Positions 5,040 to 28,015 of a stretch of 41,598 nucleotides of DNA are shown here, one piece after another. Location: positions 1 to 41,598 of IMG/VR virus record IMGVR_UViG_3300018080_000293; one strand, given 5' to 3'. The DNA comes from a virus. The stretch's first letter is position 1. Each line of letters starts with the position of its first letter. Made by a program: the position numbers and the translations under genes. The notes beneath the pieces were generated by a model. It was given only the letters and a program-made list of their open reading frames with translations, had not been told where the DNA came from and made no database searches.

Positions 5040-5398
5040 TGAAAGAAACACAATACCCAATTATATTTGATAAGTGTCCAACATGTGGTTCAACAGAGTG
5101 CGTGGTAGAAACTGAGGTTGCTGATGAAATAGAAAGAGGTAACCTGCCATCTGATATGAAAATTCCTGCACTGATAACAGAGAGTCACCTGATTGACACC
5201 AGGGTTCCTCTAAAGGAAACCAAGAAATTCAATGCATTGGTCAGTTACTACGATATATGTGCCAACTGTGGGAATCTATACTGTAAGCAGATAAGAAGGG
5301 TAACTGGCACAGCAACACCTAGACCTAAGCCTGGACCTCAGATACTTAGACCACCTGACACTTTTATGGGTGGTTCACCATTCATTGGTAGAGGATAA
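5039..5398 (+). CDS. Zinc-ribbon protein with basic proline-rich tail
   Basis: 119 aa. CPTCGSTEC near the N-terminus and CANCGNLYC around residues 78-86 make a two-knuckle zinc ribbon. The tail is rich in P, R and G (ATPRPKPGPQILRPP), probably disordered. It is the last protein gene before the structured RNA region. Confidence 0.7.
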   Translation: MKETQYPIIFDKCPTCGSTECVVETEVADEIERGNLPSDMKIPALITESHLIDTRVPLKETKKFNALVSYYDICANCGNLYCKQIRRVTGTATPRPKPGPQILRPPDTFMGGSPFIGRG

Positions 5399-5433
5399 TT
5401 AGTGAACCTTTACAACCAAATATAGTATCTAAT

Positions 5434-5945
5434 CTTGCTGGTGGCTGCATTGAAACTTGGAGTAGCCTTAATAGGGATGGGTGCCAGTAAGTTAGAGAAT
5501 CCCAGCCACCGATGCTGGATAGCAAGCTCATCTTATGGGTCTAGATTCCCATAGGGTTAGCCCAGCTAGGATGCAAATACTGCAATGCCCGAACGGTAAG
5601 GGTGCAGTAATGAATGTAGTTAGGCAACCGTGAAATGGCTACTGGCTGGGATACCCTGCGAGGCTTGGTGAAAAGGATGTCGTGCCTGAGTAACCCGCAA
5701 GAAAACAAGGTGGTCTGTAGCCAAGCCAGCAGGGTGAAGCCTGAGTCTGAAAGAGGCTTGTCCGAGGCGTTGCATAGGATGAAGGAAACGGGTGCGAACT
5801 GGAATGGGTATAACCAGACGAAAGTCATTACACCGTCCAGACTAGAAACCAAAAGATATGCAGTAGGACTCAGGACGGGCTTGCCAGTGACTTATGCGTT
5901 AAAGGAGTCCATGTCAGGGTGAAAACGTCCCTGAGCTGGCAAGCC
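5434..5945 (+). ncRNA. Large structured non-coding RNA (~510 nt), GOLLD/ROOL-like candidate
   Basis: A 580-base stretch without a credible gene holds many perfect long helices. Examples: 5440-5447 with 5503-5510, extended by 5434-5439 with 5521-5526; 5534-5539 with 5548-5553; 5578-5584 with 5603-5609. Next are 5653-5659 with 5729-5735, stacked on 5662-5668 with 5721-5727 (14 pairs); 5737-5742 with 5754-5759; and 5833-5838 with 5873-5878. The last are 5879-5887 with 5937-5945, enclosing 5915-5919 with 5929-5933. A GAC-GAAA-GTC hairpin (5817-5826) supports the plus strand. It looks richer in G and C than the flanking genes. The size, phage setting and nearby tRNA resemble the ornate GOLLD and ROOL RNAs, but I cannot confirm identity. 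Its ends are estimated from the outer helices. Confidence 0.72.
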
Positions 5946-5978
5946 TTCTGGAAAGGAATGGGGGATAAAGGAGGAGAT

Positions 5979-6581
5979 ATGACACCAACAGAAGAACAGA
6001 TTAAGAGATTTTGGGAGTGGTGTGGGTTTAAGTTCTTTAGACCCTACGAAGGTGGAGCTATTGATGTTATACCCCCCGAAGGGAGTATGTATTTATCTCC
6101 CAGCAAGATGGCAATACCCGAACCAGACCTCAACACCCTCTTTAAGTGGGCTGTGCCGAGGCTATTGCCTATGCTTGAGAACCGATTTAGTCCTGTGACG
6201 AACAAACAAAGAGCCTTACAGTTATTATTCGATAGATGGCTAAATGAGATTCACGAAGGCATAGAACTAGAAGATGCCCTCTTCTGGGCAATCTATAAAG
6301 CAGCAGGATTGGAGGAGAAAATGAAAGACTGGAAAGCTGAAAATCCATATAACCCAACTGATTTGGATTATGGGTTGAGTGTTGCCCCTCTGTCACCCAG
6401 AGAGATGGAAGACTTATGTAGACAGATTTTTGATGATGGATGCCAAGCCCAGGCAAAGAAGCTGGTGGAGTGGGAAGACGAACTATGTAAGGAGCATAAC
6501 AAAGTACCTAATTTACCTGCAATGCCCAGGCGGTGTTGTGAACATTGCTGGCAATCCCTGAAGGAGGAGTTGGGATTATAG
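5979..6581 (+). CDS. Hypothetical protein
   Basis: 200 aa; ATG 5979 follows AAAGGAGG (5967-5974), while the longer GTG at 5919 would lie inside the RNA's terminal hairpin. The N-terminal part is aromatic (QIKRFWEWCGFKFF), followed by DLNTLFKWAVPRLLP; the C-terminus has a cysteine group (RRCCEHCW). Sits between the structured RNA and the tRNA. Word choice here seems somewhat different from the upstream genes. No function assigned. Confidence 0.7.
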   Translation: MTPTEEQIKRFWEWCGFKFFRPYEGGAIDVIPPEGSMYLSPSKMAIPEPDLNTLFKWAVPRLLPMLENRFSPVTNKQRALQLLFDRWLNEIHEGIELEDALFWAIYKAAGLEEKMKDWKAENPYNPTDLDYGLSVAPLSPREMEDLCRQIFDDGCQAQAKKLVEWEDELCKEHNKVPNLPAMPRRCCEHCWQSLKEELGL

Positions 6582-6582
6582 C

Positions 6583-7155
6583 ATGACTGAATCAGGGCGA
6601 AAGAGGGATAGCGTCACAGATGGCGAGGTGAGCCAGTCTGTAAAACTGGCGTCGAAAGGCTTAGTAGGTTCGAATCCTACCTATCCCACCATTCATTGTC
6701 GAAATTGTCACTACGAGCCTAAGAATAGAGGGGTATCAAATAGTATAGCAGCAATAGTGCAGTGCTATCACCCACTTGCTCTGTCCGACCCTGGGAATAA
6801 AAATCCCTGTAGATATTTTGTTCCCAAAGAAGGAATCGAGTTGGAATGGTATATCAAGGGCTGGGATGATTTAGTTCGTATTATAGAAGGCAGATATTAC
6901 ATAAAAGACAAGGGGATAATCTTTAATCCCGAGGAGTGGGAGGCATTTAAGAGTAGATACGTAGCTAAGGGTTGCACTACAAACTTAGGAATCATTGGTG
7001 CTACCTGTAACTGTGGTGCAGAATATCAAGCCGAACAGACTGCAAAGATGCTAGGAGAGCAGTTGAGACAGGAAGGCAGACAGGAAGTGGTGGATTGGAT
7101 AGAATCTAATTTAAAGCAGTTTCAGGGATACCAATATCTTGATGAAGTAAAGTGA
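6583..7155 (+). CDS. Zinc-knuckle protein whose open frame reads through the tRNA
   Basis: The frame is open from ATG 6583, but codons 8-36 are the tRNA-Tyr. Real protein similarity seems to begin at codon 37: HCRNC, then C-x-HP, then NPC match the C-x2-C, C-x-H-P, C pattern of the next gene product (7192). In that gene the first cysteine is residue 5, which would put this start at the tRNA 3' end, where only an ATT (6691) is available. Either ATG 6583 is used before tRNA processing, or translation starts at a non-standard codon on the mRNA left after tRNA excision. The rest is an acidic helical region with CNCGAEYQAEQTAK and a Q/E-rich C-terminus. True N-terminus uncertain. Confidence 0.55.
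   Translation: MTESGRKRDSVTDGEVSQSVKLASKGLVGSNPTYPTIHCRNCHYEPKNRGVSNSIAAIVQCYHPLALSDPGNKNPCRYFVPKEGIELEWYIKGWDDLVRIIEGRYYIKDKGIIFNPEEWEAFKSRYVAKGCTTNLGIIGATCNCGAEYQAEQTAKMLGEQLRQEGRQEVVDWIESNLKQFQGYQYLDEVK
6605..6691 (+). tRNA. tRNA-Tyr (GTA) with encoded CCA
   Basis: Acceptor GGGATAG (6605-6611) pairs with CTATCCC (6681-6687), followed by discriminator A and CCA at 6689-6691. D stem TCAC/GTGA; anticodon stem CCAGT/ACTGG with loop CTGTAAA, giving anticodon GTA; a long class II variable arm as in bacterial tRNA-Tyr; T stem GTAGG/CCTAC around TTCGAAT. All stems are perfect, so the tRNA should be functional. It lies in frame inside an open reading frame (6583-7155). Confidence 0.95.
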
Positions 7156-7191
7156 CAAGCCCAACTCAAGAAATGGAGAAAGGAGGACTAA

Positions 7192-7371
7192 ATGTATAGT
7201 AGCTGTAATGGTTGTGTATTCTTCTACGAAGAACGGGATGTGAACTACAGGACTTGCAAGCATCCTGACTATGATGAGGAGGAAGATGTTTGCCCTGGTA
7301 GATATGATATAGAGGATGCCAAAGCTGATGCAAAAGAAAGACAGAAGCATTTTGCCGAATTGGAGGACTGA
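7192..7371 (+). CDS. Small zinc-knuckle protein (59 aa)
   Basis: ATG after AAAGGAGG (7179-7186). Cysteines CNGC at 5-8, CKHP at 22-25 and C34 form the same C-x2-C, C-x-H-P, C pattern as the tRNA-linked gene before it, followed by an acidic then charged helix. The stop overlaps the next start by one base. Probably a metal-binding module; function unknown. Confidence 0.65.
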   Translation: MYSSCNGCVFFYEERDVNYRTCKHPDYDEEEDVCPGRYDIEDAKADAKERQKHFAELED

Positions 7372-21895: not shown

Positions 21896-24800
21896 TTATT
21901 GGTAGAGGCTATAACCTCTGTCAACTAGCTGGTTATACATTTCCTCTGCTTCTGGAGTTAGTAGTGTAGATGTTCTTCCCCAATATAGGAGTTGAGCATC
22001 TAACATTGGCATCACCATGCGGAGTTTCTTTCTAGCATCGGCTACCCTGCTACGATACTGGGATATTAACTGTAGTCCACCTGTAGTGGTATAACCTTCA
22101 ATCTCCTTGGCTCGTAGTGGGTTTATATCTTTAATTAGATAATACTCATCTATTAATTCCTGCTCTTCTTCGGAGAATTCTCCTTTGATTACATTAGCTG
22201 TGTTCCAGTATGGAGCCATATATTCCTTAGTAGCTTCTCTATACATTAACCAGCCAGGAGTTCTATTGCGGTTCATGTAAGTTTCCCAATCAGCTTTTAG
22301 GTCTGGTGGCATAATACTCTCAATAGCATCAAGGGTAGCAAAGTATATTGACCAATCAGTGTAAAGTCGGTTAGTCTCTGGGTCAATTATTTCTTTAGGA
22401 GATAGCTCATACCACATAGCCAGCATTTCATCAAAGGTAGACATGGTTAGATTAACACCTCGTTCATTATAAAATACTGACCGTTCCTCTAGTGTTACTG
22501 GAACAATCCTAAACTTTGTCTTTGCATTAGGATTCATACTCCATGTGCCTGTAGCTGGGTCATAAGTATCACCTCTAAGGTCATGGATATAGCTAGCATT
22601 ATCAGCCATGATTGACCTAACTCTATCTACATATTCTTCTTTAGAAATCCAACCACCTTCACCAGAAAATGCTTGAGCTTCAAGTTCCTTCAACCTCTCC
22701 ATGTTATCATCATTATGTTGGCGAACCAATCCCCAAAACTCTGATAGGATTAGATTTACTTCCTGCTCATGGCTTGGTCTTAGTGGTGCTGTAACTCTAG
22801 GACTAATCCATCGCTTGTATTCCATTGCTTCCTCTATTTGCATCATATCTAGTTGGGATAGTCCACCAACTACATCACCTACTGACTGACCACGCCTACG
22901 AAGTTTGGTTTGCATATCAACTGGTATGCCAGTTATCTCAGCAATGTATTCACCAAACATTTCATAAGCTTCTGTTCTGTCCTCATGGCGAAGTCTGTAG
23001 ATACCACCATGTTCCATAAGTGGTGCAACAGAAGCTACTTTCCTTCTAGCACCAGCCCATAACTTTTCTTCCTCTGGAGTTAGTTCATCATGCCTTTGCA
23101 TCTTTTCCCAAACTGATACACCTGTAATTCCTCTACGAACTTGGTCATCACTAGCCATGTGAGTAGCTTGGGTTATATGCATATATTGTCGGAAGTAGTC
23201 TGGGAATAGCTTATCCTGTAGTAGAATAGCTGCCTTTGAATCTGGATGAGCCATAACAAATATATCTAATGGAGTCCTAGCTATTGCTGGTAACAGTTGT
23301 CCACGCTGTGCTTCTCTACCTCCAAGTGTTGATACTGGAAGACTCCAAAAGATGTTTGGAAAGAATCCCCATCTTTGGGCATAATCAAATGCTTCCAGTA
23401 GCTCTGGGAAAGCATTGTCATAGTATTCTGGATAATCCCTACGCATCAAGGTTGATATGCCACCTTTGAATACCGTGCCTCTGAGAACATTAACATCCAG
23501 TGATGTACCTGGCATATGAATATAACCATAGTCAGAGTTGTCCATATATTTACCCCATGTATTAAGGACACCTGGATGAGTAGCAAAATGACGAGGTAGC
23601 CAGAACCATCTTTGGGATTCATATGTCCAATATGGGAATACAGATTTAGCACCAGCATCCAAAGCATTCATGTTGGAATAATCAGTAAAGTCTTGATGGT
23701 AGGATATCATGGCTTTGTCCATAGCCTCTTGCTTTGTTTTCCACCAGTCAGCTGAACCTTCACCTGCTCTTACTGCTGGAGGTTTAGTTGGAGGCTTTTT
23801 TATGGATGACTCTATAGTTTTCAACTTTGATGCTACAACCTTCATATCTCTATCAAGGATACCATTCATCAATTTCTTTATATTTTTAGTTAAACCAGTA
23901 GTTTCAGGTATGGATTTGATTTGGGATTTTATATCAGAAATCATTGACACTTCTGACCCAGTTAATGGTCTAGTCCAATCAAAGTCTGTCAATGAACCTT
24001 TTATGGCATTAAATTTCTCCATGAAATAACCAGCATCTGACACTTCCTTACCCATTTCACGGAGCATATCACCAGCGTTCTCCAATTTCCTAGCTACCAT
24101 ACGAGCAGCAACAGATTTCTCCTCAGTCATCCTAAGGATATTATACTCAAGGTTAGCATCCCAGAAATCTCTAGCTGGTATATCTGGTGGATGCTCTATT
24201 CCCATAGTTCTACCTTCTAGTTTGGCTGGTTTGTAAATATCCAACTTCTCAAGGTTAGTAGCAAATTCATCTGCGTAGGATTGTAGGATATTAACAGTAT
24301 CATGGTTAATTGAACCATTTATTCTGATGGATTCCAAATCACTCATAAGACTGTCCAGTTGACCTAGCTTTGCTGTAAGTTCATCATGGATAAGTGGGTC
24401 TGAGCGTAGTCCATACACTACTTGGTCATATACATCAGATATAGCATCATCGGTGAACCCTAATGCTTCTCTGGTAGTTCCAGCCCTTCTAGCCATAGCC
24501 TCTGCTTCTACTATTGTGGATTTTACAAAGTATGGTTTACGCATCATGGTCTGGGAATTCATTATAGCATATGCTAGGTTATCCCCTGTGCCATAGTGGA
24601 GTGCTGCTACATCAGCAGGAGTTAGTTTTCTACCAGCAGCATTTAGTATTGGTTGTTGAACAGACCTCTCACCTATAGTAACACTTAGTCCTTTAGCTGC
24701 TGCTTTCTGTAAACCAAACAATTCTGGGTCAGTTATCTCAAAGTGGTGTTTCCAAATTGCATCCATGGCATCATACCATTTAGTTGAACCTGGTCTCACA

Positions 24801-27800
24801 CCTTCTGCTAGTAGTTCTTGACTTTTAGCCATAGCTTTTAGTCTGGTATTGGTAATACCTTCAACCCTAGCCATATATACTGCTAGGTTTTTCTCTAATT
24901 CCTGAGCTTGTCTAGCTTCCATAACACCCATGTTTTCATGGATAAAGTCTAATAGCCTTTTAGCTTGAGTCTCACCTTCATCTAGGAATGGTGCTATACG
25001 CTTATAACCTTCTGAATAGATTTCCGCCCTAGCTTTTCTACTACCTGCTTTAGCACCTTTACGCTGTAATCCAGTAAATAGACCAGATATAACCTCTGGT
25101 AGGTCTGTAGATACATTCTCAAGGAATTGGGCATAGTGCATGAGAGTATCAATATCCTGAACCTTGTCAATGTTTCCTATAGCATCATCAACAAACTTCC
25201 TCATAAACTTAGCTCTGTTCTCTGGAGTTTCTATTAGCTTATTGAATAAAGTATCTTCCATATCAGAACCAAATTTTCCAATATCATCCCATAGTCTACC
25301 ACTAAATGCTGCTTCCCTAGCATAGTCGGTAATTTCACTGAGGTCTGGATACTTCATACAAGCTTCATTAACCTCTGCTGTTTTTATATTCCTAACAGAG
25401 AAGTCTTTTGGATAGTTTCTAGCTGTGGATGGACCAACCAATCCTCTATCTTCAATACCTTTGATAAAAGCCTTTTTGGTTTTATTTGGTAAACCTACAA
25501 TGCCATCAAGACTACTAGGTGGAGGCAAGGCTTCATGGATACCTTTCATAGCATCTGGAGCTACATCATTCAGGTTTTCAATAAATTTGGTCATAGTATA
25601 TCCAGAACGCTGCATGCCTCCTGCCCACTGTGAGGCACGAATTGGGAAATACAAAGCTTCATGGACAGCTTTACCTTTCTGACCTGGTAGCCAACCAAGC
25701 ATGATAATTTTCTCTAGTGCTGGTTTACCTATATCTTCCTCAAGTTCCTTTAGCAATGCTGCTTCTGATATTTCACCAATACCAAATTCAGCACCAGGTC
25801 TAGTTAGTTTATTCTTTAGAATGGTTTTATAACTCTCCTTGGCTAGATAAGCACCTCTTAGCATGTCCTTGTCAAACATCAAACCAGTTGCTACAACTTC
25901 CAATCTAGCTGGAGTATTCTTACCATAGATAAAGCCTCCTCTACCAGATAGAGTTCGGTATATCTCTTCAAACCAATTCCAAGGTGCATAGGAACCAGTA
26001 ATTAGATATGCTCTGGCAAATGGCATAATCAGTTGTTTGTCTATCCAATTAGTCCATATCTTTGTGGTAAGTGGGTCAATTACATTATTCATAACAGCAG
26101 CATGGAAGCCACCATGTAATCTACTGAGGTATACACCTTCCTTAGCTTCCCTAAGTATGTTCAATTCAGTTAGTTTACCAGCTTCTCTTATTGATTCAGC
26201 AATAGGTAACTGTGATATTTCTCTAGCCTTGGATATCGCCTTGTCATAGCTTTCCTTTATAAATTTCTGCACAACCTTCATCCTTGCTTCAGTATCAGTT
26301 ACTTCAAAGACTTCTCTAAGGATTTTCTGTGCAGCTACTTCCATGTTATACACTTGGTATTTACTACCTTTAATTTTAGCATGTTCAATAATATGGTTAA
26401 AATTGGATATCATGCCCTGAGTAATGTCCTCCGCTTGAAGCTTTGAACCTACTCTTGAAGCCAGTGTTAGCAAATCATCATGGGTAAGTGGAGTTCTCTG
26501 CACATATTCCCAACCAAGAATAGCTAGGTCATCTGTTGCATCAGGATGAGCTAATACATGGTTTATCGCTTCTTTATTTAACTCAACAAAATCATCAAGG
26601 GTTATTTGGCTTGCAACTTTACCAGGTTTAACTAGCTTACAATGGATTGCTGATATTTTAGTAGTTGTATCAGTCCCAGCAAAGGTAGCTCTCTGTCCAG
26701 CAGTTTTAGGAAATGTTTTCACCCAACCTTTTACTGCTGTAAATGGTGCTTCTGCAACTGTGATAAATCCTCGTTCAAATGCACCAAGTCCACCCATAAC
26801 TCTACCAATAAATGGGATTCCTTTAGTAGCTTTTGCAGCTTTAATAAATAAGCCAAATCCAAGATATGTTACTGGGTCAAGGACAACCTCTAAACCCATC
26901 TTACTCCATTCACTGTGCTCCCAATCCTGCCATGCTTTACTATGTGCCATCCAGAAGCCCATACCAGCTTCCCTATTCTGTTCATATAACCTGTCCAACT
27001 CTGAGATTATTGCTTCCTCTTCCTTTCTCACATCAGCATTAACAAATGGTCTTGGAAAAATTTGTCCAATCTTGGATGCATACCTTACAGCTATAGCAGT
27101 TTCTGGATAGTTCCAATAAGTCCAGTATGGTTGCATAGCTTCCATAGCAGCTAAAGCTGGTTGGCTAAAGAATAATTTTACCCTATCACCAATAGGCATA
27201 GCTGGCATTTCAGGAGTCTCTAATCCCATTCTATAGCGTCTGATTTGCTCCCTACTGGCTTCATACTCCTCCATCATGGTAGCCCAATCAGTGGTTTGTT
27301 CTTCTATTGCAGCTAATTCCTCATCAGTCAAACCTTTCTCATCTTTTAGATATTTAGTCAACTCTCCTTCAGTCAAATTTTCAGGAAGCTCAGGAGTAGG
27401 TATTTCCTTTTTAAGCCATTTAATCATTTCCTCAACTGTGGTTAGATGAACTCCCTTGAATCTAGGTCTAGTTTCTAAAGGACTGGTTATGAATTCTTTA
27501 GCTGAATCATAATCTTCTGGAGTTAAATCTGTTGGTGCTGTTGGGGATAATATAGCTTCAACACGCATCCTAGCTTGCTCCAAATCAGCAGGGTCAGTGC
27601 TTGGTTCTGGAGGGTGCTGTTTAAGATAATCATCAAAACTGGTAATGTTAGCAGAAGCAAAATCATCTGGAGTAGCAGAATAAACATTTAGAAACCATGT
27701 AGCTTCCTCATACTTGGCAATTTGTTCTAATTCTGCTGGAGCTTCTTTTAAAATTTCCTTTTCAGCTTCCTCTGCTTCTGGTCCAGGTAAACCAGGAATC

Positions 27801-28015
27801 AGTGCTCCTTTAGTAGTATAATGCCTTGGATATTGAGAACGCATCAACCATGATATCACTTTCTGCAATGGAGATAATTCACTGGTTTCAAGCCATGGAG
27901 ATTGTTTGGCTACTCTCTCCTGGCGAGATATCGGTTTTATGGTTTCCAGTATACCAAAAGCATCTGTAGCTTGTTTCTTCCATTTATTAAATGCTTCTTC
28001 AAACCCATTAGGCAT
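21896..28015 (-). CDS. Giant virion-associated protein (2039 aa)
   Basis: Occupies the slot between portal and scaffold where a minor head protein is usual, and takes up about 15% of the window. Predominantly helical and charged; acidic proline-rich N-terminal part (EILKEAPAELEQI, TPELPENLTEGEL). A hydrophobic glycine-rich segment lies around residues 380-430 (YLGFGLFIKAAKATKG, FIGRVMGGLGAFERG). An aromatic block is near 1455-1490 (VFPYWTYESQRWFW, HPGVLNTWGKYM). Few glycine/threonine-rich repeats, so not a fibre. Known parallels are ejected internal virion proteins and large polyvalent proteins; no catalytic motif could be secured. ATG follows AAGGAGG. Confidence 0.75.
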   Translation of the reverse strand: MPNGFEEAFNKWKKQATDAFGILETIKPISRQERVAKQSPWLETSELSPLQKVISWLMRSQYPRHYTTKGALIPGLPGPEAEEAEKEILKEAPAELEQIAKYEEATWFLNVYSATPDDFASANITSFDDYLKQHPPEPSTDPADLEQARMRVEAILSPTAPTDLTPEDYDSAKEFITSPLETRPRFKGVHLTTVEEMIKWLKKEIPTPELPENLTEGELTKYLKDEKGLTDEELAAIEEQTTDWATMMEEYEASREQIRRYRMGLETPEMPAMPIGDRVKLFFSQPALAAMEAMQPYWTYWNYPETAIAVRYASKIGQIFPRPFVNADVRKEEEAIISELDRLYEQNREAGMGFWMAHSKAWQDWEHSEWSKMGLEVVLDPVTYLGFGLFIKAAKATKGIPFIGRVMGGLGAFERGFITVAEAPFTAVKGWVKTFPKTAGQRATFAGTDTTTKISAIHCKLVKPGKVASQITLDDFVELNKEAINHVLAHPDATDDLAILGWEYVQRTPLTHDDLLTLASRVGSKLQAEDITQGMISNFNHIIEHAKIKGSKYQVYNMEVAAQKILREVFEVTDTEARMKVVQKFIKESYDKAISKAREISQLPIAESIREAGKLTELNILREAKEGVYLSRLHGGFHAAVMNNVIDPLTTKIWTNWIDKQLIMPFARAYLITGSYAPWNWFEEIYRTLSGRGGFIYGKNTPARLEVVATGLMFDKDMLRGAYLAKESYKTILKNKLTRPGAEFGIGEISEAALLKELEEDIGKPALEKIIMLGWLPGQKGKAVHEALYFPIRASQWAGGMQRSGYTMTKFIENLNDVAPDAMKGIHEALPPPSSLDGIVGLPNKTKKAFIKGIEDRGLVGPSTARNYPKDFSVRNIKTAEVNEACMKYPDLSEITDYAREAAFSGRLWDDIGKFGSDMEDTLFNKLIETPENRAKFMRKFVDDAIGNIDKVQDIDTLMHYAQFLENVSTDLPEVISGLFTGLQRKGAKAGSRKARAEIYSEGYKRIAPFLDEGETQAKRLLDFIHENMGVMEARQAQELEKNLAVYMARVEGITNTRLKAMAKSQELLAEGVRPGSTKWYDAMDAIWKHHFEITDPELFGLQKAAAKGLSVTIGERSVQQPILNAAGRKLTPADVAALHYGTGDNLAYAIMNSQTMMRKPYFVKSTIVEAEAMARRAGTTREALGFTDDAISDVYDQVVYGLRSDPLIHDELTAKLGQLDSLMSDLESIRINGSINHDTVNILQSYADEFATNLEKLDIYKPAKLEGRTMGIEHPPDIPARDFWDANLEYNILRMTEEKSVAARMVARKLENAGDMLREMGKEVSDAGYFMEKFNAIKGSLTDFDWTRPLTGSEVSMISDIKSQIKSIPETTGLTKNIKKLMNGILDRDMKVVASKLKTIESSIKKPPTKPPAVRAGEGSADWWKTKQEAMDKAMISYHQDFTDYSNMNALDAGAKSVFPYWTYESQRWFWLPRHFATHPGVLNTWGKYMDNSDYGYIHMPGTSLDVNVLRGTVFKGGISTLMRRDYPEYYDNAFPELLEAFDYAQRWGFFPNIFWSLPVSTLGGREAQRGQLLPAIARTPLDIFVMAHPDSKAAILLQDKLFPDYFRQYMHITQATHMASDDQVRRGITGVSVWEKMQRHDELTPEEEKLWAGARRKVASVAPLMEHGGIYRLRHEDRTEAYEMFGEYIAEITGIPVDMQTKLRRRGQSVGDVVGGLSQLDMMQIEEAMEYKRWISPRVTAPLRPSHEQEVNLILSEFWGLVRQHNDDNMERLKELEAQAFSGEGGWISKEEYVDRVRSIMADNASYIHDLRGDTYDPATGTWSMNPNAKTKFRIVPVTLEERSVFYNERGVNLTMSTFDEMLAMWYELSPKEIIDPETNRLYTDWSIYFATLDAIESIMPPDLKADWETYMNRNRTPGWLMYREATKEYMAPYWNTANVIKGEFSEEEQELIDEYYLIKDINPLRAKEIEGYTTTGGLQLISQYRSRVADARKKLRMVMPMLDAQLLYWGRTSTLLTPEAEEMYNQLVDRGYSLYQ

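Follow-up and report, generated by a model that had tools for sequence, protein, structure and literature searches.

Between two early genes of an uncultivated phage, at positions 5431-5946 of the + strand (~520 bases), lies an RNA that looks, by sequence comparison, like a member of a new, phage-specific and modular RNA family. The window, i.e., the whole stretch of DNA analyzed, is a virus record of 41,598 nucleotides (41.6 kb) whose phage genes include those for a DNA polymerase, a major head protein and a terminase. It is highly probable that a real structured RNA class is represented here. Since covarying units are found in ~60 other uncultivated phages and match no catalogued family, they look like a new RNA class, a possibility that the sequence-only reading had raised; as a family it appears categorically new, since separable pseudoknotted modules around a stand-alone core are unlike the building principle of the phage RNAs GOLLD and ROOL. 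Covariation, a conserved protein frame and an intron match were looked for as outcomes bearing on the earlier proposal of a large, multi-helix non-coding RNA; covariation is present among the homologues, a conserved frame and an intron match are absent, and the proposal stands.

The RNA locus belongs to a run of early genes, with a 119-aa gene upstream (stop codon at 5398) and a 200-aa gene downstream, which starts with the ATG at 5979 and is preceded by a Shine-Dalgarno (SD) sequence. As had been read from the letters, the ORF list of the window holds no plausible gene between 5399 and 5978 (+), where two mechanical ORFs (95 and 103 aa) extend across part of the RNA region, and neither a promoter nor a terminator above chance was found at the window locus. 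Elsewhere in the window, a single ORF of 2039 aa (21896-28015, minus strand) lies amid the structural genes. The predicted minimum free energy (MFE) of 5399-5978 (+) is -202 kcal/mol vs. -176 ± 5.8 for 100 dinucleotide shuffles (z = -4.4, 0/100), and the - strand folds more weakly (z = -3.0). Neither flanking gene returned relatives in protein scans. A search with the DNA polymerase identified loci L002 and L003, whose proteins are 80% identical, and L004, at 51% identity. In L003, a highly divergent form of the RNA, identical in its 3' stem, lies directly 3' of an AAA_24 gene; L002 has a short form, and none is found at the matching place in L004. The L003 and L002 RNAs also fold better than their shuffles (z = -3.5 and -3.9, respectively), and no protein frame is conserved in the L003 RNA.

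Read from the 5' end, all on the + strand, the window RNA is preceded by an AU-rich leader (ACAACCAAATATAG, 5399-5430) that loosely resembles the leader of the relatives (TTAACAAYTRAATAG); because it fails the two-mismatch test, this assignment is tentative. The 5' module (5431-5494) is A-like, with outer stem P1 CUUGCUGG/CCAGUAAG near 5434-5492 and the inner hairpin GGCUGC/GUAGCC, and is the second best window match of R1, the model of module A (13.3 bits, E = 0.10, filters off). Between this module and module B, an extra arm (5499-5560) folds as a CUUAUGGG hairpin, and CCCAGCCA is able to pair with the 3' strand also used by P1 of module B; a short form of this domain occurs in L002 at 6950-7205. 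Module B (5561-5652), with P1 CCCAGCUA/UGGCUGGG and inner GUAG/CUAC, is matched by R2, the module B model built without the window, L002 and L003, whose best window match is 5561-5650 (26.9 bits, E = 3.7e-5). In module D (5653-5735), found in the window and L003, CCCUGC/GCAGGG (5654-5659/5729-5734) stacks on GGCUUGG/CCAAGCC (5662-5668/5721-5727). Module C (5740-5874) is formed by CCUGAGUC/GACUCAGG (5740-5747/5867-5874), a helix that is absent from the single-sequence MFE structure and is backed by comparison. The 3' module (5877-5946) is a degenerate module A with P1 GGCUUGCCAG/CUGGCAAGCC (5878-5887/5936-5945, 10 of 10 pairs) and P2 CAGGG/CCCUG, and is the best match of R1, a model that includes the window's relative L003, in the whole window (18.9 bits, E = 0.003, filters off). 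The stack at 5653-5735, the stem at 5878-5945 and the 5' stem near 5434, all named previously, exist, and as R1 and R2, built from other loci, match here, three window modules fall in the reported stretch. No pseudoknot is evident in the two A-like modules of the window, both of which are degenerate; the canonical copy, with an identical P1 and a score of 55.8 bits, sits in L003 at the position of the window's 3' module.

Module A is the core module, ~60-100 nt long, and consists of an outer stem (P1) and an inner helix (P2) crossed by a pseudoknot, with the conserved unpaired bases UGU, AAACUAU and NGAAR. A pattern of this module matched 46 viral stretches, which represent 41 distinct copies. 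As the inner letters of P1 and P2 are set by the pattern itself, covariation was scored outside those letters, where the outer pairs alternate among UA, GC, CG and AU, and the inner pair of P2 reads CG in 15, UA in 14 and AU in two copies, plus wobbles. P1 and P2 together yield 59 two-sided covariation cells vs. 25 in shuffles (0/500) and a covariation score of 0.228 vs. 0.092 ± 0.013 in shuffles (0/500), and all slid registers are worse. In L003, L119 and L121, two core pairs of P1 are swapped in compensation; a separate scan for swapped stems returned these three as good copies, plus unrelated matches. The pseudoknot is formed by the bases after UGU and those before NGAAR: each copy's own partner gives 2.24 pairs vs. 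1.57 ± 0.11 when partners are exchanged among copies (z = 6.2, 0/20000), in a permutation test whose anchor was picked after inspection; a looser search without the anchor reaches only z = 2.1 and sees no signal in the variable bases by themselves.

Module B is a motif separate from A, GCCAGCUA...UAGCUGGC with a small hairpin whose cap is mostly GAAA, and is found in 18 viral stretches with an 18-base exact pattern. Its P1 and P2 covary modestly (7 two-sided cells vs. 1.4, 0/500). The inner helices P3 and P4 both look compensated by eye; under partner permutation P3 is marginal (z = 2.0) and P4 fails (z = 1.3), and such further inner helices of module B are suggestive at most. Modules C, D and E were identified by eye and pattern. 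The motif of the putative module C, CCUGAGCC...GUAGGCUCAGG, occurs in ~10 relatives, and the window has a compensated U-A in place of C-G. Module D occurs also at 4972-5048 of L003, where its outer stem has become UGCGA/UCGCA with the pairing kept. The module order 5' A-like, B, D, C and 3' A is identical in the window and L003. Module A often occurs alone, composite forms reach ~500-600 nt, and comparison shows that gain and loss affect whole modules.

Searches with the AAA_24 profile yielded 35 loci, in which recurring RNA motifs near early genes were recognized by reading, and module A was found in ~60 uncultivated viral contigs. Run on 88 loci, R1 matched 67 times at E ≤ 1, in the majority far below 1e-3; 26 of the 34 whole viral records have a match, mostly a single one. 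Two copies each are found in L121, L053 and L075, in separate places in L053 (11438-11522 and 4430-4516) and L121 (11182-11262 and 12146-12228). The RNA region had no blastn match among 50,697 phage and 72,556 plasmid records, and a typed module A consensus likewise had none in phages and plasmids. Across 84,980 cellular genomes, the module B pattern was not found and the module A pattern matched 19 times; only L107, from a Dehalococcoidia metagenome-assembled genome (MAG), is member-like (51.8 bits), the other 18 score ≤32 bits, and those that were read resemble chance. Among 294 genomes of the class Dehalococcoidia, R1 found the same contig only, and the AAA_24 profile, run without a positive control, found nothing. 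By these strict patterns, the modules appear near-absent from cellular genomes, and they may be present there more widely.

An AU-rich consensus leader precedes the RNA in 15 of 61 loci vs. 0.15 expected and marks its 5' side; beyond this enrichment, a reading of the leader as a promoter is not supported. A tRNA 660 bases downstream, noted from the sequence, was confirmed as tRNA-Tyr (GTA) at 6605-6691; since it covers the beginning of mechanical ORF 6583-7155, the true start of that gene probably lies later. No tRNA was called in L002, L003 or L004, tRNAs were called at few of the ~60 loci, and most copies are without a nearby tRNA. On the Dehalococcoidia contig, a tRNA match (L107:1038-1123, 39.5 bits) whose anticodon loop is abnormal lies between the leader and module A, and its acceptor stem has the letters of P1 of module A. 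Stretches near the RNA that are tRNA-like by eye were seen in L014, L031, L065 and L093, and L067 has a called tRNA-Met. Upstream of the RNA, L002 (6880-6922) and L003 (4651-4686) have in common a GC-rich hairpin, GGAGGCUCAG...CUGGGCCUCC, that lacks a T run. By eye, terminator-like hairpins follow the RNA on its 3' side in L043 and L045, and GACAGAACAACTGAG is common to L045 and L091 ahead of such hairpins. Five modules A lie between an SD-like sequence and a start codon (L087:4269-4333, L088:14417-14493, L121:11182-11262, L096:1771-1848 and L057:239-334) and look inserted or bridging.

The best explanation, which we hold tentatively and would put a little short of an even chance, is that a stable RNA of a new modular class is released from the operon transcript and acts in trans. 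We propose that the RNA would be transcribed as part of the operon, fold while emerging and be cut from the transcript, much like operon tRNAs, after which it would persist as a stable, trans-acting molecule. In the least certain step, each module would be a binding unit, interchangeable with the others, that scaffolds or sequesters an RNA-handling factor of host or phage; decoying host defense would be an example of the latter, with pseudo-ToxI of phage PhiTE, a precedent for phage RNA decoys (PMC3475682), as its one point of reference. Such a scaffold or decoy mechanism in trans is plausible rather than probable. An elaborated form, in which interchangeable pseudoknotted modules, cut from the operon like beads on a string and possibly derived from or mimicking tRNA, would each bind or decoy a different RNA-handling or defense factor of the host, is unlikely. 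Covariation of module A and its pseudoknot, the compensated P1 swap, covariation in P1 of module B, the kept module order, the leader and the terminator-like hairpins in L043 and L045 all speak for the trans-acting RNA. Its size, its usual presence once per genome, its variable neighbors and the leader shared with the L107 tRNA favor action in trans over action in cis.

The main rival, which is possible although on balance doubtful, is a cis-acting mRNA element that would, for instance, block exonucleases, provide a processing point, let transcription read on or tune initiation of the next gene. It is favored by how closely the RNA is fitted between genes and by the copies placed between SD and AUG. 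Of 53 intergenic copies whose upstream neighbor was scored, 49 share the strand of that gene, which often ends ≤30 nt away; many copies are only a few bases from the stop codon and the start codon, ~11 stand-alone copies lie ≤25 nt from the next start codon, and ~5 sit between SD and AUG. These placements, together with the lack of a promoter or terminator above chance in the window and the two-copy loci, count against a trans-acting RNA. Yet the neighboring genes sort into 41 clusters upstream and 49 downstream, of which the largest is a family of 19 upstream genes, so varied that the RNA is not dedicated to one gene (assignments of opposite-strand downstream genes are unreliable, since the gene finder was crude). 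The element also usually occupies one locus per genome, and composites of 500-600 nt are large for a role in cis.

The other explanations are all improbable. Module A might contain one or more small self-cleaving ribozymes, HDV-like or of a new type: its fold is compact and pseudoknotted with conserved unpaired bases, and theta ribozymes, which are HDV-like, are known next to tRNAs in gut phages (PMC10879173). What makes this improbable is that the base at the would-be catalytic C (J4/2) is G in eight, C in seven and U in three copies, that the strand order has an extra outer stem and that Rfam ribozymes were unmatched. A divergent, cage-forming GOLLD or ROOL would agree with a phage-borne, ornate RNA of ~520 nt with one tRNA nearby; that attribution did not hold, as no Rfam 15 match beyond chance appeared at E ≤ 10, the modules are separable and occur alone, and tRNAs are found at few of the ~60 loci, leaving it with little probability. 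As little can be given to a DNA-level element such as a single-strand replication origin, which would account for the usual single presence and for the proximity to replication genes in several phages, against which stand the fixed orientation relative to the upstream gene, the better fold of the sense strand and, in small numbers, the wobbles at covarying pairs (8 G-T vs. 4 A-C). A self-splicing intron or other mobile intervening RNA is very improbable: modules come and go as units and some lie between SD and AUG, yet, save for a probable chance match in L060, none was seen within a gene, and no conserved core or domain V of group I or II introns was matched in Rfam by the window or its relatives. 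Chance structure or an unrecognized gene, for which the two overlapping ORFs might be invoked, is hardly credible in the face of covariation, model matches in unrelated loci and the frameless L003 RNA.

To the best of our knowledge, few large structured phage RNAs have been described, and no function has been assigned to any that is ornate. A minimal form of ~60-100 nt with a covariation-supported pseudoknot, together with composites that carry add-ons, makes this class experimentally tractable: module A is small enough for structure determination, probing and pull-down, and each module can be tested singly. If the modules are indeed decoys or scaffolds, they would point to a general RNA-based strategy of uncultivated phages.

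Compared with Rfam 15, the whole window gave no match at the gathering thresholds and the RNA region only one chance match at E ≤ 10; matches at E ≤ 10 for L003, L002, L107 and L031 were chance only, except the tRNA beside the RNA in L107, and 14 further loci gave none at gathering. Fremin et al. reportedly compiled a large phage and virome catalogue, and catalogues outside Rfam could contain the module class. The candidates in published catalogues of structured RNAs (PMC2864571, PMC8040213) were likewise found by covariation, while the class described here is absent from Rfam 15. The tRNA cloverleaf model (RF00005) did not match the RNA of the window, L003 or L002, and the tRNA of L107 is a separate neighbor; that tRNA shares stem letters with module A, whereas the modules themselves were unmatched in the scanned stretches. 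ToxI consists of near-identical repeats of ~36 nt. As with ToxI and pseudo-ToxI (PMC3475682), the units here are phage-encoded pseudoknot RNAs, but the modules are unlike one another and 60-150 nt long. With HDV-like theta ribozymes (PMC10879173) they share phage-borne crossed helices near some tRNAs, whereas the outer stem of module A encloses the pseudoknot and the position of the catalytic C is not conserved. ROOL and GOLLD are large, ornate and pseudoknotted phage RNAs of unknown function that often lie near tRNAs, and GOLLD forms a 14-mer nanocage (PMC12286853). The GOLLD covariance model was unmatched at gathering and at E ≤ 10, as was that of ROOL in the window, L003 and L002, and proximity to tRNA islands, often seen for ROOL, has its counterpart in one tRNA in the window and none in L002-L004. 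Large, ornate and phage-borne like both of them, the window RNA belongs in kind with these phage RNAs; as a family it matches nothing known, and unlike them it is a chain of small, separable modules of 60-150 nt, mostly without tRNAs, whose core often stands alone.
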